Assembly: GCF_002952775.1 (NCBI RefSeq)
Contig: NZ_CP025066.1
Span: 248,001-312,000 of the forward strand
Direction: 5' to 3'
From: Halalkaliarchaeum desulfuricum
Lineage (GTDB): Archaea; Halobacteriota; Halobacteria; Halobacteriales; Haloferacaceae
DNA: 64,000 nucleotides
The notes beneath the pieces are model-generated. The model worked only from the letters and a program-made list of their open reading frames with translations, was not told where the DNA came from and searched no databases. The first letter of the stretch is position 1. Each line of letters begins with the position of its first letter. The translations under genes and the position numbers were made by a program. Below are positions 465-28,279 of the stretch, in pieces.

Positions 465-980
465 TCAGAACCCGTCGCCACAGTCCGGACAGACCAGTTG
501 CCCGTTCACGGACGTGAGCTCCGGGGACAGCGAGCCACACACCTCACAGATGCTGTTTTCGACCGCCGGATCGGATCCCTCGTGGATATGTGTCGGCTCC
601 CGAACTGTCGTCGTCGCCGCGAGCAGGTCCCGCTCGGTGATGACGCCGATCGCCTCGTTCTCCTCGGTGACGATCAGCTGTCCCGCGTCTTCCCCGAGCA
701 GGAGTTCCTCGACATCCGCGAGGCGCTCTTCGGCCGACACGGTCGGTACGGGTGGCTCCATGACCGCGGAGACGTCGTTTTCCAGCGATTCCTCGGAGAG
801 CACCGCAGCGAGAACGTTGCGGGCTGAAAGCGAGCCGACCGGCTCGTGACCCCGCAGGACAACGAGATAGTCGGCGTTCTCCTCGATCAGTAGCTCGGCG
901 GCGTCCTCGAGTGCGTCCGACTCGCTCACCCCCAGGAACTCCCGGTGCATCACGTCCCTGACGGTCGGTTCGTCCCTCAT
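465..980 (-). CDS. CBS-domain pair protein with C-terminal zinc ribbon
   Basis: 171 residues. Two CBS motifs are seen at about residues 8-60 and 70-125 (VRDVMHREFLGV, and ITERDLLAA at the end of the second). They are followed by a small zinc ribbon with CEVC and CPDC near residues 144 and 163. CBS pairs usually bind adenine nucleotides and regulate partners; the ribbon suggests contact with nucleic acid or protein (inference). A TATA-like run lies at about 1004-1012 on the minus strand, some 27 bases before the ATG, so a leaderless transcript is likely. Partner unknown. Confidence 0.85.
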   Translation of the reverse strand: MRDEPTVRDVMHREFLGVSESDALEDAAELLIEENADYLVVLRGHEPVGSLSARNVLAAVLSEESLENDVSAVMEPPVPTVSAEERLADVEELLLGEDAGQLIVTEENEAIGVITERDLLAATTTVREPTHIHEGSDPAVENSICEVCGSLSPELTSVNGQLVCPDCGDGF

Positions 981-2014: not shown

Positions 2015-3742
2015 ATGGTAGCAGAAGCGATCGAACCCGGGTTACTCACGGATTTCGGGTATATAATCGTCGCCGCAGCTGTCGTGGGGTTTCTCGCGGC
2101 CCGCACTGGACAGCCGACGATCATCGCCTACATTCTGACGGGGCTGCTGCTCGGGCCGGCGGTTTTCGGGCTCGTCTCGCCCAGTGTCCTGACCGAGACG
2201 ATGGCCGAACTCGGGCTGGCGTTTCTCCTGTTTCTCCTCGGGATCAAGATGCGCATCGACGAGATCAGACACGTCCTCGCGCCGATCGTCAAGATCTCGA
2301 TCCCGCAAATGGCGCTCGTGGCCCTCGTGGGCTTCGGGACCGCCCTCCTTCTCGGGTTCAGTCAGTGGGAGTCCGTCATCATCGGACTGGCAGTGATGTA
2401 CAGCTCCACCGCTGTCATCATCAAGATGCTGACCGACAAGGGGACTGCAACCACGTTGCACGGCAAGATCGACATCGGTGTCCTGCTGGTTCAAGACATC
2501 GTCGTCGTGATCCTGCTCGCCATCCTGGCGGCGGGCCAGCCCGACAGCGCGGTCGACGTGTTGACGACGCTGGGGATCGTTCTCGCCCTCGTCGTGGCGA
2601 TCGGCGTCGTCGCGATGGTGGCATCGAGATACGTCCTCCCGCCGATATTCCGGCGGATCGCCGACGACACACAGGTGTTTTTCCTCATTGCGATTTCCTG
2701 GGTATTCCTGTTTTTGTTCGTCTCCCAGGAACTCGACCTCTCGATCGAAATGGGGGCGTTCCTGGCAGGGATCGCAATCGCACAGATGCCGTACAGCAAG
2801 GAACTGCAAGCAAAGGTCGCCCCGCTTACGGACCTGTTCATCCTGGTGTTCTTCGTCTCCGTGAGCCTAGAGCTGGAGGCCGCGGATCTGTTCACGTTCT
2901 GGCAAGAGGCCGTCATCGCAGCGCTGGTTCTCATACCCGCGAAGTTCGTCGTGTTCTTCTACCTGATCGACTGGCAGGGGTTCGACATCGAGACGACGTT
3001 CCTCGGCAGCGTCAACATGATGCAGGTGAGCGAGTTCGGGCTGATCGTCGGCGCGGTTGCCGTCACTGGTGGATTCATCGACGAGGGGATCCTCGGCTTT
3101 CTCACCCTCGTTGCCCTGTTGACGATGAGTCTCTCGGTGTACTTCATCAAGTACAACGCTTCACTGTTCGAGCGTGTCAGGCCGGCCCTCGATCGGTGGG
3201 CCGGCGACGACGAAGGACGCCCAGAACTGGACGAGTATCACGACCACGTGGTGGTCGTCGGGTTCGACGAGATCGCCCGACGGGCGATGCTCCTGCTCGA
3301 CGACCGCTACGAGCAGATCGTCGTAATCGACAGAAACGTTTCAGAGATCGACGCGATCGAGGCGGCGGGATACGACGCCATCTTCGGGGACGCGAAGTAC
3401 GAAAAGATCCGCAAGGAAGCGAGGGTGAAGTACGCAGACTTCGTGTTCTCCTCGTCGGTCCAGACCGACGTTAACGAACTCCTCCTCGAGGACGCCGGGG
3501 CGGACACCACCGTCTTCGTCGAGGCCGAATGGCCACAAAATGCGATCGAGCTCTACGACCAGGGTGCCGATTTCGTCGCCGTCACGCCGCAGCTGTCCGC
3601 CGAGCAACTGCAACAGTATCTGGTAACGTACCTGACGAACCCGTCGGAGTTCGAGGACACGCTGCGTGCGGATCTGGAGATCCTGCGGTCGGAGGAACTG
3701 TTCCCACAGACCTGCGCCACCTGGAGGAGTTCCGATGACTGA
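2015..3742 (+). CDS. CPA2-family (KefB/KefC-type) cation transporter, 'A' member of pair 1
   Basis: 575 residues. About 12 hydrophobic helices occupy residues 10-385, followed by a TrkA-N/RCK-like Rossmann domain at ~405-530. The helix carrying LLVQDIVVV has the QD pair found in Kef potassium-efflux proteins, rather than the ND of NapA-type antiporters. The Rossmann dinucleotide motif is degenerate: VVVGFDEIA has Asp and Ala where GxGxxG is expected. The stop overlaps the start of the next gene by 8 bases, so the two are translationally coupled. Likely a membrane K+(Na+)/H+ transporter subunit. It is closely related to the gene at 24925. Confidence 0.9.
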   Translation: MVAEAIEPGLLTDFGYIIVAAAVVGFLAARTGQPTIIAYILTGLLLGPAVFGLVSPSVLTETMAELGLAFLLFLLGIKMRIDEIRHVLAPIVKISIPQMALVALVGFGTALLLGFSQWESVIIGLAVMYSSTAVIIKMLTDKGTATTLHGKIDIGVLLVQDIVVVILLAILAAGQPDSAVDVLTTLGIVLALVVAIGVVAMVASRYVLPPIFRRIADDTQVFFLIAISWVFLFLFVSQELDLSIEMGAFLAGIAIAQMPYSKELQAKVAPLTDLFILVFFVSVSLELEAADLFTFWQEAVIAALVLIPAKFVVFFYLIDWQGFDIETTFLGSVNMMQVSEFGLIVGAVAVTGGFIDEGILGFLTLVALLTMSLSVYFIKYNASLFERVRPALDRWAGDDEGRPELDEYHDHVVVVGFDEIARRAMLLLDDRYEQIVVIDRNVSEIDAIEAAGYDAIFGDAKYEKIRKEARVKYADFVFSSSVQTDVNELLLEDAGADTTVFVEAEWPQNAIELYDQGADFVAVTPQLSAEQLQQYLVTYLTNPSEFEDTLRADLEILRSEELFPQTCATWRSSDD

Positions 3743-5414
3743 ACTACTGACCGTCATTTCGATCGTCTTTATCATCGCCGGCCCGTTCCTCCTTCTGGCC
3801 AACTACCTCCGGCTGCCGACTGCGCCCGCACTGATCGTCGCCGGGCTGGCCGCCGGGGGGTTCATCGATCCGCAGCTCAAACTCGAGATGGCGCGGCTGG
3901 GGATCGCGCTCCTCGTGTTCACCTTCGCCGTTCGCATCCAGACGACCGACCTCCAGACTGCGATCGGCGACAGCGAGGTCGTCGCGCTCGCACAACTGGC
4001 GATCGTCGGGCCGGTAGGGTTCGGTGCCGGATTGCTTCTCGGTCTCGGTCCCGGACAGGCGATCTTCCTGGGGATCGCGACAGCGATCTCGTCATCCATA
4101 GCCGGGTCCACATTGTTCTTGCCCGGAACTCTGGAGTTAGTTCATGATCGGCTCTCTGAATCCATCCACTCGATACAGGACTTCACCGCACTGATCCTCT
4201 TGCTGATCGTGAGTGGAGGCGCGTTCGCCCTGGACCCGATCGCGAACCAGTTCGGCTACGGTGTCATGTTGTTGTTGCTCGCGATTGCGATAAACCGCTA
4301 CCTGTATGACCTGCTCGTTCGGTTCTCCGGGGGCGTCGACGAGTCGCTGCTCATCGGAACGATCGCCCTGTTGCTTTTGTTCCTCGGAGCAGCCGAATTC
4401 GTGGGGCTCTCGATCGTCGTCGGCGCGTTCGCGGCCGGCGTCGCAGTCCCCCACGAGGGCGTGGAGTACTCCGGCGTACTCAACGGCCTCGAACCGATAA
4501 ACAACTTCTTCGCCGGGATCTTCTTCATCACGGTCGGTGCGCTGGTGACCCTGCCGACGTGGGAGGTGATCGTGACGACGCTGGTTCTCGTCGGCGTGGT
4601 CGGAATCATCAAACCCGCGGTGACGATAGCCCTGCTGATATACAAGGGGTACGAGCGGCGAACGGCGACGCTTACGGGATTCAACCTCGATCAGATCGGC
4701 GAGTTCGCCCTCATCATCGCGATCGAAGGCCTCTTTCTGGGCCTGCTCGCCTCGTCGGTCTTCGATGCGATCATTCTCGCCGCCGCGATCACGTTGCTCA
4801 CCTCCAGTTTCACCCGCCAGTACGACGAGGAGATCTACCATCTGCTCGCCAATAACGGACTGCTGGGCCGCCATGGAAGAACCGTCGAACGGTGGAGCAA
4901 CGTTCCCGAGGACCTCACCGATCACATCGTCATCGTCGGCTACGGACGCCACGGTCGACGGCTCGTGGAAACCTGCGAAGAGCACGATCGATCGTACGTC
5001 GTGATCGAGAGCAACCCCGCACTCATCGACGACCTTCAGGAGAACTGTCGGGCCCACGTCTTCGGGGACGTAGTCGAGCCGAAAACCCTCGAAAAGGCCA
5101 GGCTGACCGAGGCGGATCTGGTGATCTCGACGGCCGACTCGCGCCCGGTGAACGAGCACGTGGTTTCGTATTCCAATCGGGTCGACGTCATCGTCAGGTC
5201 GAAAGACAGAGCCAGCGCCAGGGAGCTTCTCGACAGCGGGGCGTTCTACGTGAGTGTCTCGGACCTGCTCGCTGCCGATCGCCTGGAGGAACGGTTCGAG
5301 GGTCTGATCGAAGGGAACTACGACAGGGAGATGTTACGCCAGGAGGCACTGGATTCCATCGATGAGTACAGTGGTGCTCCGTATCGCGCGGCCGACGAAC
5401 GAGTCAGCGTTTGA
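3735..5414 (+). CDS. CPA2-family cation transporter with intact RCK domain, 'B' member of pair 1
   Basis: 559 residues from ATG 3735. The in-frame upstream extension has no family resemblance and overlaps the preceding gene. About 12 membrane helices lead to a TrkA-N domain at ~395-520 with an intact nucleotide motif, HIVIVGYGRHG. The helix with SIQDFTALILL again has the Kef-type QD pair. The 8-base overlap with the preceding CPA2 gene implies coupled synthesis and possibly a heteromeric complex. Its paralogue is at 26636. Confidence 0.9.
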   Translation: MTELLTVISIVFIIAGPFLLLANYLRLPTAPALIVAGLAAGGFIDPQLKLEMARLGIALLVFTFAVRIQTTDLQTAIGDSEVVALAQLAIVGPVGFGAGLLLGLGPGQAIFLGIATAISSSIAGSTLFLPGTLELVHDRLSESIHSIQDFTALILLLIVSGGAFALDPIANQFGYGVMLLLLAIAINRYLYDLLVRFSGGVDESLLIGTIALLLLFLGAAEFVGLSIVVGAFAAGVAVPHEGVEYSGVLNGLEPINNFFAGIFFITVGALVTLPTWEVIVTTLVLVGVVGIIKPAVTIALLIYKGYERRTATLTGFNLDQIGEFALIIAIEGLFLGLLASSVFDAIILAAAITLLTSSFTRQYDEEIYHLLANNGLLGRHGRTVERWSNVPEDLTDHIVIVGYGRHGRRLVETCEEHDRSYVVIESNPALIDDLQENCRAHVFGDVVEPKTLEKARLTEADLVISTADSRPVNEHVVSYSNRVDVIVRSKDRASARELLDSGAFYVSVSDLLAADRLEERFEGLIEGNYDREMLRQEALDSIDEYSGAPYRAADERVSV

Positions 5415-24924: not shown

Positions 24925-26643
24925 ATGAGCGCCGAGATCACGCTGGCCGCGGACGTCGGAATCATCATCGTGGTGGCCGCGATCGGCAGTCTGGTGGCGA
25001 AACAGACGGGGCAGCCGACAATCGTCGCCTACATCCTGGCTGGGCTCCTGCTCGGCCCCGCGGCCCTCGGGATCGTCGAGGTCGGCGCGCTCACCGAAAC
25101 GATGGCCGAACTCGGGCTGGCGTTTCTCCTGTTCCTTTTGGGCATCAAGATGCGGTTCGAGGACATCCAGCACGTTCTCCGCCCGATCGTCGCGATTTCC
25201 CTCCCGCAGATGGCCCTCGTTTCGACCGCGGGGTTTCTCACCGCCTACGGGCTGGGCTTTACCGTCTGGGAGTCCGTGCTGATCGGTCTGGCGGTGATGT
25301 ACAGTTCGACCGCGGTCGTCATCAAGATGCTCAAGGACAAAGACACCGCAACCTCCCTGCACGGCAAAATCGACGTCGGCGTGTTGCTCGTCCAGGACAT
25401 CGTCGTCGTGATCATTCTCGCGGTGCTCGCCGCGGGGCGACCCGACAGCGCGGCCGAGATCGCCCTGACGCTTTTCACGGTGCTTGCACTCGTCGCGGGG
25501 ATCGGGATCGCCGCCGTCGCCGCGTCCAGATATCTCCTTCCAGTGATCTTCCGTCGGATCGCAGGGAACAGGGACGTCTTCTTCCTGATCGCGATCTCGT
25601 GGGGGTTCCTCTTCGTGCTGTTCGCCCAGGAGTTCGATCTCTCGATCGAGATGGGCGCGTTCCTCGCCGGACTCTCGATCGCGCAGTTGCCGTACAGCAA
25701 GGAGCTACAGGACCGGATCAATCCCCTGACGGACCTGTTCATCCTGGTGTTTTTCGTCTCGGTCGGCCTCCAGCTCGACGCGGCAGACCTCTTCGCCTTC
25801 TGGGAGGAGGCCGTCCTGGCATCGATCGTGCTGATCCCGGTCAAGTTCCTGGTGTTTTTCGCGCTCATCGACTGGCAGGATTTCGACGTCGAGACCACGT
25901 TCCTCGGCAGCGTCAACATGATACAGGTCAGCGAATTCGGGCTGGTCGTCGGTGCCGTCGCCGTCGCCGGAGGGTTCATCGGCGAACCGGTACTCGGCTT
26001 CCTGACGCTGACCGCCCTGTTGACGATGAGCGTCTCCGTCTATGTCATAAAGTACAATCAGCAACTGTACGATCTGGTGTCCCCGTTCCTCGAGCGCCTC
26101 GATAGCGCGGACGACCGCGATGTCGAACGCAAGCAGTACCGGAACCACGCTGTCGTCGTCGGGTACGACGACGTGACCGAACCCGCGTTGCCGCTGCTCG
26201 CACAGTATTACGACGACGTCGTCGTCGTGGATCGGAAGCCGGACCACATCGAGAAGCTCGAAGCAGCCGGGTTCGAAACCCTATTCGGGGACATCAGTCA
26301 ACAGACAATCCGAAAGAGCGCCGAACTACCGTACGCGGATTTCGTGCTCTCCTCGTCCGTTCAGCCGGCCGTAAACAGAATGCTCCTCCAGGAGGTGGCC
26401 GAAGAAACGACCGTCGTCGTGAAAGCCGAGCGGGTTTCCGACGCCCGTGACCTGTACGATCTCGGGGCCGACTACGTCGTATTGAGTACACACGTCGCCG
26501 GCGGCCGACTCGCCGAGTTCCTGGAGGCATATTATCAGGACAGGAACCGCTTCGAAGAGATGCTCCAGACCGACGTCCAGCGCCTGCGAACGTTCGTGTC
26601 GTCCGATTCACCGTCCGCTTTCGGGGGTGAAACGGATGACTGA
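24925..26643 (+). CDS. CPA2-family cation transporter, 'A' member of pair 2
   Basis: 572 residues, nearly colinear with the gene at 2015: shared blocks include LTETMAELGLAFLLFLLGIK, SIEMGAFLAG and VSEFGL. About 12 helices lead into a Rossmann/RCK-like domain in which the nucleotide motif is degenerate (AVVVGYDDVTEPAL, no GxGxxG). The helix LLVQDIVVVI keeps the Kef-type QD pair. The stop overlaps the next gene by 8 bases, exactly as in pair 1. Confidence 0.9.
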   Translation: MSAEITLAADVGIIIVVAAIGSLVAKQTGQPTIVAYILAGLLLGPAALGIVEVGALTETMAELGLAFLLFLLGIKMRFEDIQHVLRPIVAISLPQMALVSTAGFLTAYGLGFTVWESVLIGLAVMYSSTAVVIKMLKDKDTATSLHGKIDVGVLLVQDIVVVIILAVLAAGRPDSAAEIALTLFTVLALVAGIGIAAVAASRYLLPVIFRRIAGNRDVFFLIAISWGFLFVLFAQEFDLSIEMGAFLAGLSIAQLPYSKELQDRINPLTDLFILVFFVSVGLQLDAADLFAFWEEAVLASIVLIPVKFLVFFALIDWQDFDVETTFLGSVNMIQVSEFGLVVGAVAVAGGFIGEPVLGFLTLTALLTMSVSVYVIKYNQQLYDLVSPFLERLDSADDRDVERKQYRNHAVVVGYDDVTEPALPLLAQYYDDVVVVDRKPDHIEKLEAAGFETLFGDISQQTIRKSAELPYADFVLSSSVQPAVNRMLLQEVAEETTVVVKAERVSDARDLYDLGADYVVLSTHVAGGRLAEFLEAYYQDRNRFEEMLQTDVQRLRTFVSSDSPSAFGGETDD

Positions 26644-28279
26644 ACTCCTGACGGCCGTCGCGATCGTGTTCATCGTCGCCGGCCCGTTCCTCCTCGTGGC
26701 CAACCGGCTGGACATCCCTGCGGTCCCGTTCCTTATTCTCGCAGGGATCGTCGCCGGCGTCGGTGTCGACGAGGAGATCACGCTCGAGTTGGCCCAGTGG
26801 GGGATCGCGCTTCTGGTGTTTTCCTTCGGCCTCCAGATACAGTTCGACGCCGTTCGAGTCGTCCTTGGTGACGGCGAGAAAGTCGCGATAGCCCAGATGC
26901 TGTCCGTCGGTTTGCTGGGCGTTGTCGTCGGCGTCCTGTTCGGTCTCCCGCTCGAACAGGCGATGTATTTCGGGATCGTCGCGGCGTTCTCCTCGACGAT
27001 CGTGGGTACGGCCCTGCTCCAGCGGGACATCCGAAAGAACCTGGTCCGTGGACGGCTGGCGGAGTCGATGAATTTCGTCCAGGACATCGCGGCAGTGCTC
27101 GTCGTCCTCGTGTTGGGTGCCGGCGCGTTCGACGCGGATCTGATCGCCATGCAGGTGGGCTACGGCGTGTTCTTGCTTTTGGCCGCGGTGTTCGTCAACC
27201 GGATCCTGTTCGACGTCCTCGAGCGGCTCTCGAAGGGGTCCGACGAACAGCTAATCGTCAGCGTGATCGCGCTGCTCGTGGTGTTTCTCGGTGCCGCGGA
27301 GCTGTCCGGCATCTCGATCGTCGTCGGCGCGTTCGCAGCCGGGATCGCCGTCCGGTACGATCCCGACGAGTACTTCGGCGTGTTCGACGGTCTCGTGTCG
27401 ATCAGGGACTTCTTCGTCGCGATCTTCTTCGTCACGGTCGGCGCCCTCGTGACAGTTCCGACCGTCGAGGTGTTCGCTCTCGCGGTGGGACTCGGGCTGT
27501 TGACAGCCGTCGTCAAGCCCGTGGTGACAACCGTGTTCCTGATTTACAGCGGATACGAAGCACGATCGGCGACGCTGACCAGCCTCAGCCTCGATCAGGT
27601 CAGCGAGTTCTCGCTTGTCATCGTCATCGAGGCACTCATCCTCGGGATCCTCCTCCAGTCGGTGTTCGATGCGATCATCATCGCCGCCGCCGCGACGATG
27701 ATCACCTCGAGCCTGAGCCGGGCGTACGACGAACAGATCTATCGTGTGCTCGCCGACTGGCGGCTATTCGAGGGACGCCATGAGAAGATCGACGAGCGGA
27801 GTTCGGTTCCCGAGGACCTCACCGATCACGCGATCATCGTCGGATACGGTCGACAGGGACGAACACTCGTCGAGACCTGCGAACGCCTCGACATCCAGTA
27901 TGTCGTCGTGGAAAACGACCCCACCCGTCTAGAGGATCTCCGATCGGAGTGTGACGCGTACGTCTTCAGCGACGCGAACGAACCGTACGCGTGGGTAAAA
28001 GCAGACGTCGACGAGGCCCGGATCATCGTTTCGACGGTCAACTCGCCGCCGGTCTCCGAATACCTGTTGCGGTTCGCGAACGGAACCGACCTGATCCTCC
28101 GTACTGACGACGTCGAGTTCGCTCGGGATCTCCTCGATCGGGGTGCGATGTACGTCTGTGTCGACGACACGCTCGCATCCGAACAGCTGATCGAATATAT
28201 CGAGCGGCTCGAAGACGGGTCACTACCCCAGGAGACGTTGCGGAAAGAGCAGATCGCATCGCTCAGTGACCTCGCGTAG
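26636..28279 (+). CDS. CPA2-family cation transporter with intact RCK domain, 'B' member of pair 2
   Basis: 547 residues from ATG 26636. The upstream in-frame Met-Lys-Arg extension is not needed, and the start shares the ATGACTGA overlap of pair 1. Twelve membrane helices with NFVQDIAAVLVV (QD pair) lead to an intact TrkA-N motif AIIVGYGRQG at ~403-412. It is the paralogue of the gene at 3735. Likely partner of the gene at 24925. Confidence 0.9.
   Translation: MTELLTAVAIVFIVAGPFLLVANRLDIPAVPFLILAGIVAGVGVDEEITLELAQWGIALLVFSFGLQIQFDAVRVVLGDGEKVAIAQMLSVGLLGVVVGVLFGLPLEQAMYFGIVAAFSSTIVGTALLQRDIRKNLVRGRLAESMNFVQDIAAVLVVLVLGAGAFDADLIAMQVGYGVFLLLAAVFVNRILFDVLERLSKGSDEQLIVSVIALLVVFLGAAELSGISIVVGAFAAGIAVRYDPDEYFGVFDGLVSIRDFFVAIFFVTVGALVTVPTVEVFALAVGLGLLTAVVKPVVTTVFLIYSGYEARSATLTSLSLDQVSEFSLVIVIEALILGILLQSVFDAIIIAAAATMITSSLSRAYDEQIYRVLADWRLFEGRHEKIDERSSVPEDLTDHAIIVGYGRQGRTLVETCERLDIQYVVVENDPTRLEDLRSECDAYVFSDANEPYAWVKADVDEARIIVSTVNSPPVSEYLLRFANGTDLILRTDDVEFARDLLDRGAMYVCVDDTLASEQLIEYIERLEDGSLPQETLRKEQIASLSDLA

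Follow-up and report, generated by a model that had tools for sequence, protein, structure and literature searches.

The 64,000-nucleotide stretch of the Halalkaliarchaeum desulfuricum genome analyzed here (contig NZ_CP025066.1, positions 248,001 to 312,000; hereafter the window) contains two overlapping genes, A (2015–3742, plus strand, 575 aa) and B (3735–5414, plus strand, 559 aa). Each is predicted to encode a subunit of a cation:proton antiporter-2 (CPA2) transporter with 13 transmembrane (TM) helices and a C-terminal RCK domain, degenerate in A and of the intact nucleotide type in B. From comparisons of sequences and predicted folds, A and B are probably the obligate partners in a single cation/proton antiporter, a CPA2 heterodimer expressed from translationally coupled genes. 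The pairing of the genes, their co-diversification, the complementarity of their RCK motifs, their overlapping starts and their fold are directly supported by the data below; the heterodimer, its ligand, the transported ion and the direction of transport are what we infer.

Overlapping genes encode related transporters

We take the start of B to be the ATG at 3735, a longer open reading frame (ORF) from a GTG at 3666 being a mechanical ORF call. The start of B and the stop of A then share 8 bp (ATGACTGA, 3735–3742, plus strand), as originally noted, and a Shine-Dalgarno-like GGAGGAG for B lies within the A coding region (3723–3729, plus strand); both features are read directly from the sequence. 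Pooling of loci gave 212 distinct A-B pairs, of which 180 are full-length, and 129 non-redundant pairs are left after removing those more than 90% identical in both genes. The exact 8-bp overlap is present in 107 of the 129 (83%), including very divergent pairs, and in 92 of these 107 a Shine-Dalgarno-like site is located inside A no more than 16 nt before the B start. Translational coupling of B to A would be the natural reading of this arrangement.

The membrane domains of both proteins match PF00999 (A, E = 1.4e-54, 185.8 bits; B, E = 5.1e-31, 108.3 bits; curated cut-off 26.2) and the two proteins are 27% identical in an alignment spanning their whole length, bearing out the earlier view that the membrane domains are similar. 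C-terminal to this domain, both match PF02254 (TrkA_N; E = 3.4e-11 for A and 1.6e-17 for B). Confident AlphaFold2 models made with 59 A relatives and 54 B relatives have a mean predicted local distance difference test score of 85.9 for A and 85.8 for B, the best PDB match of each is KefC, and in each model two helices follow the Rossmann part; a single-sequence PDB search with B matched only the YbaL RCK domain (3FWZ). Scores fall below the cut-offs of the NCBIfam CPA2 subfamily model TIGR00932 (238.3 bits; A 170.2, B 55.7), of the KefB/KefC equivalogs NF002973 and NF002924 (A, 166.7 of 804 and 153.5 of 752 bits; B, 61.8 of 752) and, for both proteins, of the YbaL equivalog. In view of the TIGR00932 result, A and B are related to the modelled subfamily but lie outside it, and we use the term CPA2 broadly, by fold and motifs.

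A and B occur together and have diversified together

An A profile and a B profile were searched against 391 Halobacteria genomes, of which 66 gave candidates that were then all scored. Full A genes score above 600 bits on the A profile and B genes 126–230 bits, so that the two types separate cleanly. All of the 66 genomes except G329 and G269 are carriers, and these 64 contain 133 A and 132 B genes (hand-counted from the score tables and, for H. desulfuricum itself, from its PF00999 genes; the B-profile search supplied some B genes that score low or are truncated), always in the order A-B with B directly downstream on the same strand. The sole A gene without a B is located at the end of a contig (G137), contig ends also truncate a B gene in G260 and one in G288, and no intact lone A or B was found among the 64 carriers. 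A-type genes commonly occurring alone would have spoken against an obligate pair, and this is not the pattern that we see.

Damaged loci include a frameshifted A beside its B (G381), an A with an in-frame TAG (G009) and an A fragment (G232). The single gene in G269 (L265:5031–6750) has an A-type start, is B-type from a shared GAF-AG motif onward and contains an in-frame TAG; it is apparently a recombination chimera and pseudogene, joined at this motif. The weak match in G329 was rejected as an A gene, being a membrane-domain relative with a TAG. Natural A::B fusions were sought in the pooled loci and none was found; two ORFs longer than 800 aa are A genes only, with an upstream open extension.

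In a phylogenetic tree A is monophyletic (support 0.995), as is B (support 1.0), the only outsider within B being the G269 chimera. Neither clade includes KefC, NapA or the other haloarchaeal relatives, and KefC is a long branch beside B. The A and B distance matrices are correlated with r of 0.93 (100 pairs from the 38 genomes with at least two full pairs), whereas 1000 shuffles of partners within genomes gave a mean r of 0.10 and a maximum of 0.31, indicating that whole A-B pairs duplicated and diverged as units. Judged from these comparisons, A and B are old separate clades that have co-diversified without partner swapping, and the tree and the census together agree with the original expectation of A-type and B-type clades that always co-occur. 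Such co-diversification fits with an obligate complex.

Complementary RCK motifs

The P-loop of A is degenerate (GFDEIA, residues 416–421; 3260–3277, plus strand) and that of B is intact (GYGRHG, residues 402–407; 4938–4955, plus strand), with R405 at the position of KefC R409. This contrast was noted at the outset for the window's pair and extends across the family. Of the three GxGxxG glycines, all 180 A genes retain the first and lack the other two, with a substitute motif, GY[DNS]xxT, conserved over the 129 non-redundant pairs; in B, GxGxxG is intact in 112 of the 129. The B motif is altered too in the other 17, mostly in one subclade where it reads DFEHGG. A subclade in which both motifs are changed (A GYSRLS, B DFEHGG) includes L188, L172, L194, L204 and relatives, and neither partner there has a classical nucleotide loop.

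The AMP phosphate is held by R409 and R496 in KefC (PMC11150392), and we transferred KefC positions to A and B through profile alignments. The R409 position is Glu or Asp in 100 of 129 A proteins and Arg in 104 of 129 B proteins; the R496 position is Glu in 110 A proteins and Arg in 109 B proteins. In the window's A, E503-A504-E505 (3521–3529, plus strand) places acidic residues at KefC R496 and R498, and in its B, R488 (5196–5198, plus strand) aligns with R496. The ribose-side acidic residue and the D449 equivalent are retained in both A and B. By alignment, then, the A pocket is charge-reversed, not merely eroded, because acidic residues occupy the R409 and R496 positions, and with Arg at both in B the predicted contrast between a binding and a non-binding subunit is stronger than first stated. 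The proposal of a single nucleotide site per pair holds as a majority rule, with the motif contrast and acidic A pocket in most pairs, and breaks down in the 17 pairs with an altered B motif.

Another ligand may occupy the acidic pocket of A. In MthK, the Ca2+ site-1 ligands are D184, E210 and E212 (for Glu212, PMC9440719). A has E503 and E505 at the positions of E210 and E212 and Ser at that of D184, and a full site-1 triad in A was therefore rejected. As the third ligand has no counterpart, Ca2+ binding by A is only a possibility.

Ion sites in both subunits

Each subunit has the Kef-type QD pair as had been noted, A at Q160-D161 (2492–2497, plus strand) and B at Q148-D149 (4176–4181, plus strand), both aligning to KefC Q155-D156. 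Both also have lysine at the position of KefC K307 and NapA K305, K310 in A (2942–2944, plus strand) and K293 in B (4611–4613, plus strand). Across the 180 full-length pairs, the A motif is QD in 179, and the B motif is QD in 95, DD in 54, ED in 22 and ND in 6; the essential Asp is present in 179 A proteins (D161) and in all 180 B proteins (D149). The K307 position is K in 87 and N in 93 A proteins, and K in 109 and N in 69 B proteins. B proteins with N at this position have an acidic first ion-site residue, and those with K mostly have Q. A basic residue (K or R) is found at motif position 8 in 95% of CPAs, a position that is K in the window's A and B but N in the 93 A and 69 B proteins just mentioned, and the accompanying motif model requires two acidic residues and one basic residue for electrogenic transport (PMC6181914); under this model most A and B subunits would be electroneutral.

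The A/B combinations at the K307 position are KK in 86 pairs, NN in 68, NK in 23 and KN in 1, but we rejected this covariation as independent support for a complex, as it traces to a single substitution event in A and some five such events in B. A more speculative idea, prompted by A keeping the KefC-like QD while many B proteins (not the window's) carry a NapA-like DD or ED, is that a dimer controlled by a single nucleotide switch might transport two cations, say K+ through A and Na+ through B, and might have been multiplied as such in soda-lake archaea; we consider this rather doubtful. The A gene at L247 (G136, 2168524–2170650) lies in a 734-aa open frame and carries ~127 extra residues, inserted behind profile position 154 and immediately ahead of the ion-site motif.

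A proposed heterodimer and its alternatives

In the heterodimer that we favor, each subunit would have its own 13-TM elevator-type ion path, and the two cytosolic RCK domains would dimerize under the membrane as in KefC. The nucleotide pocket would be kept in the RCK domain of B only, as a lost glycine loop and acidic residues at the phosphate site should leave A unable to bind nucleotide in the manner of KefC, and with a single pocket the nucleotide status seen by B would gate the whole pair. A would contribute the opposing face of the sensor and might have a cation ligand of its own, like the unequal RCK domains of GsuK. The most likely job of such a transporter would be K+(Na+)/H+ exchange for control of cytoplasmic pH and K+ in haloalkaliphilic archaea. 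Two points lead us to prefer this reading: were the transporters independent, one would expect a partner to have been lost in at least one of 133 cases, and the A and B sensor halves are complementary. Of the obligate heterodimer first proposed, the fixed A-B combination and the complementary motifs stand; that the two share one dimer is the step that we infer, and an underpowered coevolution test gives no TM1-TM8 signal for it.

Several observations weigh against this interpretation. Inheritance as one operon would by itself also yield strict pairing and mirrored trees, the B motif is itself altered in the 17 pairs described above, and the A/B correlation at the K307 position rests on very few events. 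In addition, mean-field direct coupling analysis of the membrane domains in the 180 pairs (effective number of sequences 62) gave no enrichment for A-TM1 with B-TM8 or the reverse, these ranking 119 and 65 of 169 helix pairs. As its internal controls reveal a lack of power, with a weak i,i+3/4 control in B and the top A pairs crowded at the N-terminus, we set this test aside as uninformative.

Alternatively, A and B could each assemble as a homodimeric antiporter of its own, the two being co-expressed because both are required by the cell; A might then be of K+ type, and B of Na+ type or under different regulation. The closest solved structure, KefC, is a homodimer (PMC11150392), the ion-site residues are complete in both subunits, and operon inheritance could account for the co-occurrence and the matching trees. 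However, separate transporters should sometimes lose one member, and no intact lone A or B is present in the 64 carrier genomes despite many duplications; moreover, an A homodimer would be without KefC-type nucleotide regulation, since all A proteins lack the nucleotide loop, and the overlapping start is kept across very divergent pairs. We consider separate homodimers unlikely, if well short of negligible. It is also conceivable, although somewhat improbable, that a heterodimer has a single active ion path and one subunit is only regulatory. The varied B ion site (QD, DD, ED or ND) and its K307 equivalent (K or N), beside an A motif that is QD in all but one gene, would suit such a division of labor, but the essential Asp is present in every B and in 179 of 180 A proteins. 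A third arrangement has A and B transport homodimers meeting only via their RCK domains in a larger assembly with mixed RCK contacts. This would explain the complementary RCK motifs equally well, and higher RCK rings are found in the K+ channels MthK, KtrAB and GsuK (PMC6957272, PMC3510474); nonetheless, in KefC, the closest fold, the RCK dimer is inside the transporter dimer and swapped α6/α7 helices contact the membrane domain (PMC11150392), and the A and B models both have two helices after the Rossmann part, making this quite improbable. That the genes are simply the product of a recent tandem duplication and A is decaying, as adjacent homologous genes of which one has lost a motif might suggest, is very unlikely, since A and B are old separate clades and conservation of GY[DNS]xxT over 129 non-redundant pairs is not decay.

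Further pairs, hosts and neighboring genes

H. desulfuricum has nine PF00999 genes, comprising four A-B pairs, three of them in addition to that at 2015–5414, and one single gene that has its own RCK domain and looks CPA1-like from its sequence; there is no lone CPA2 gene in this genome. One of the further pairs (24925–28279) is located in the same window ~20 kb from the first. Its A gene (24925–26643, plus strand) has the motif GYDDVT and is 61% identical to A, and its B gene (26636–28279, plus strand) has GYGRQG, is 50% identical to B and has the same 8-bp overlap. The P-loop is lost in all four host A genes (GFDEIA, GYDDVT, GYDDLT and GYDEVT) and GYGRxG is present in all four B genes.

Approximately 23 of about 29 named isolates with A-B loci belong to what we take to be haloalkaliphile taxa; Halorientalis salina and Saliphagus infecundisoli, presumably neutrophiles, are in the subclade with N in A and K in B. 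Most hosts that are metagenome-assembled genomes (MAGs), including Thermoplasmata, bear CSSed, B1Sed or T1Sed names, which denote soda-lake sediment series (PMC6146748). The link of the pairs to high pH is thus an association, drawn from their named hosts. A-type genes or pairs are also found outside the Halobacteria, in soda-lake Thermoplasmata and Ordos MAGs (L141, L161–L163, L121, L159), which suggests gene transfer.

The methylglyoxal synthase gene mgsA (TIGR00160, above cut-off) precedes, in the same orientation, 17 of the 159 A genes with enough upstream sequence, in several pair subclades, and 16 of the 17 are within 180 bp of A (mostly 68–180 bp; for example L140, L055, L062, L188 and L218). 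Kef of E. coli is protective against methylglyoxal and other electrophiles, and by analogy this neighbor hints at a Kef-like physiology for those 17 pairs; the window's pair has no mgsA neighbor. Near some pairs (L174, L119 and others) are genes resembling another two-gene antiporter type, with a soluble TrkA-C-like protein and a membrane-only CPA2 protein, and at L151 and 13 other loci an APC amino-acid permease with universal-stress-like domains was identified by eye. Near the first pair in the window, a gene at 465–980 (minus strand) encodes two CBS domains and a zinc-ribbon-like C-terminal end.

Comparison with known systems

KhtTU/AmhMT and KefC-KefF are two-gene CPA2 systems with regulatory input, but their second gene encodes a soluble regulator and not a second 13-TM transporter. 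E. coli YbaL resembles B in its RCK domain but is a single-gene transporter. The Thermus Na+/H+ antiporter NapA shares the 13-TM fold, and its DD motif is found in some B genes; unlike the pair, it is a homodimer with no RCK domain, and the DD-type B genes mostly lack its salt-bridge lysine. Genome papers count genes such as A and B singly as "Kef-type" (PMC5609402). In the literature searched, which did not cover subscription papers, we found neither a report of a heteromeric CPA2 or CPA antiporter nor an obligate two-gene CPA2 system with complementary RCK domains.

The closest relative in structure is the E. coli K+/H+ exchanger KefC (PDB 8BXG and 8BY2), which shares with the pair its 13-TM fold, the RCK domain and helices C-terminal to that fold, a QD motif, and the K307 lysine that both of the window's proteins retain. 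B in addition has equivalents of the KefC AMP-site residues R409, D429 (as E), D449 and R496, whereas both phosphate arginines are acidic in A, and many pairs differ from KefC in that N replaces K307 and the ion-site motif of B begins with an acidic residue. A single gene encodes KefC, a homodimer that has two AMP sites plus one for glutathione; its RCK domains pair inside the transporter dimer, and their swapped α6/α7 helices touch the membrane domain (PMC11150392). The system described here has two obligate genes.

A precedent for one nucleotide-binding and one non-binding RCK domain is provided by GsuK (PMC3510474, PMC6957272), in which nucleotide held by one RCK domain reaches a pocket on the other (PMC3510474). 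As in the pair, only one of its two unequal RCK domains has GxGxxG, and the GIDPIT of its RCK1 resembles the GYDEIT of many A genes, although GsuK is a K+ channel whose two RCK domains belong to the same chain. The CPA2 and RCK parts of the A-B system are thus familiar, as are unequal RCK pairs within a single chain (PMC3510474). The A-B pair, with up to six copies in some soda-lake archaea, is a candidate for pH and K+ management at high pH. The structurally known CPA2 antiporters are homodimers, in which it is hard to test whether the two elevators move independently or whether one ligand site is enough to gate both; with an obligate two-gene version, mutations can be made in one half at a time.

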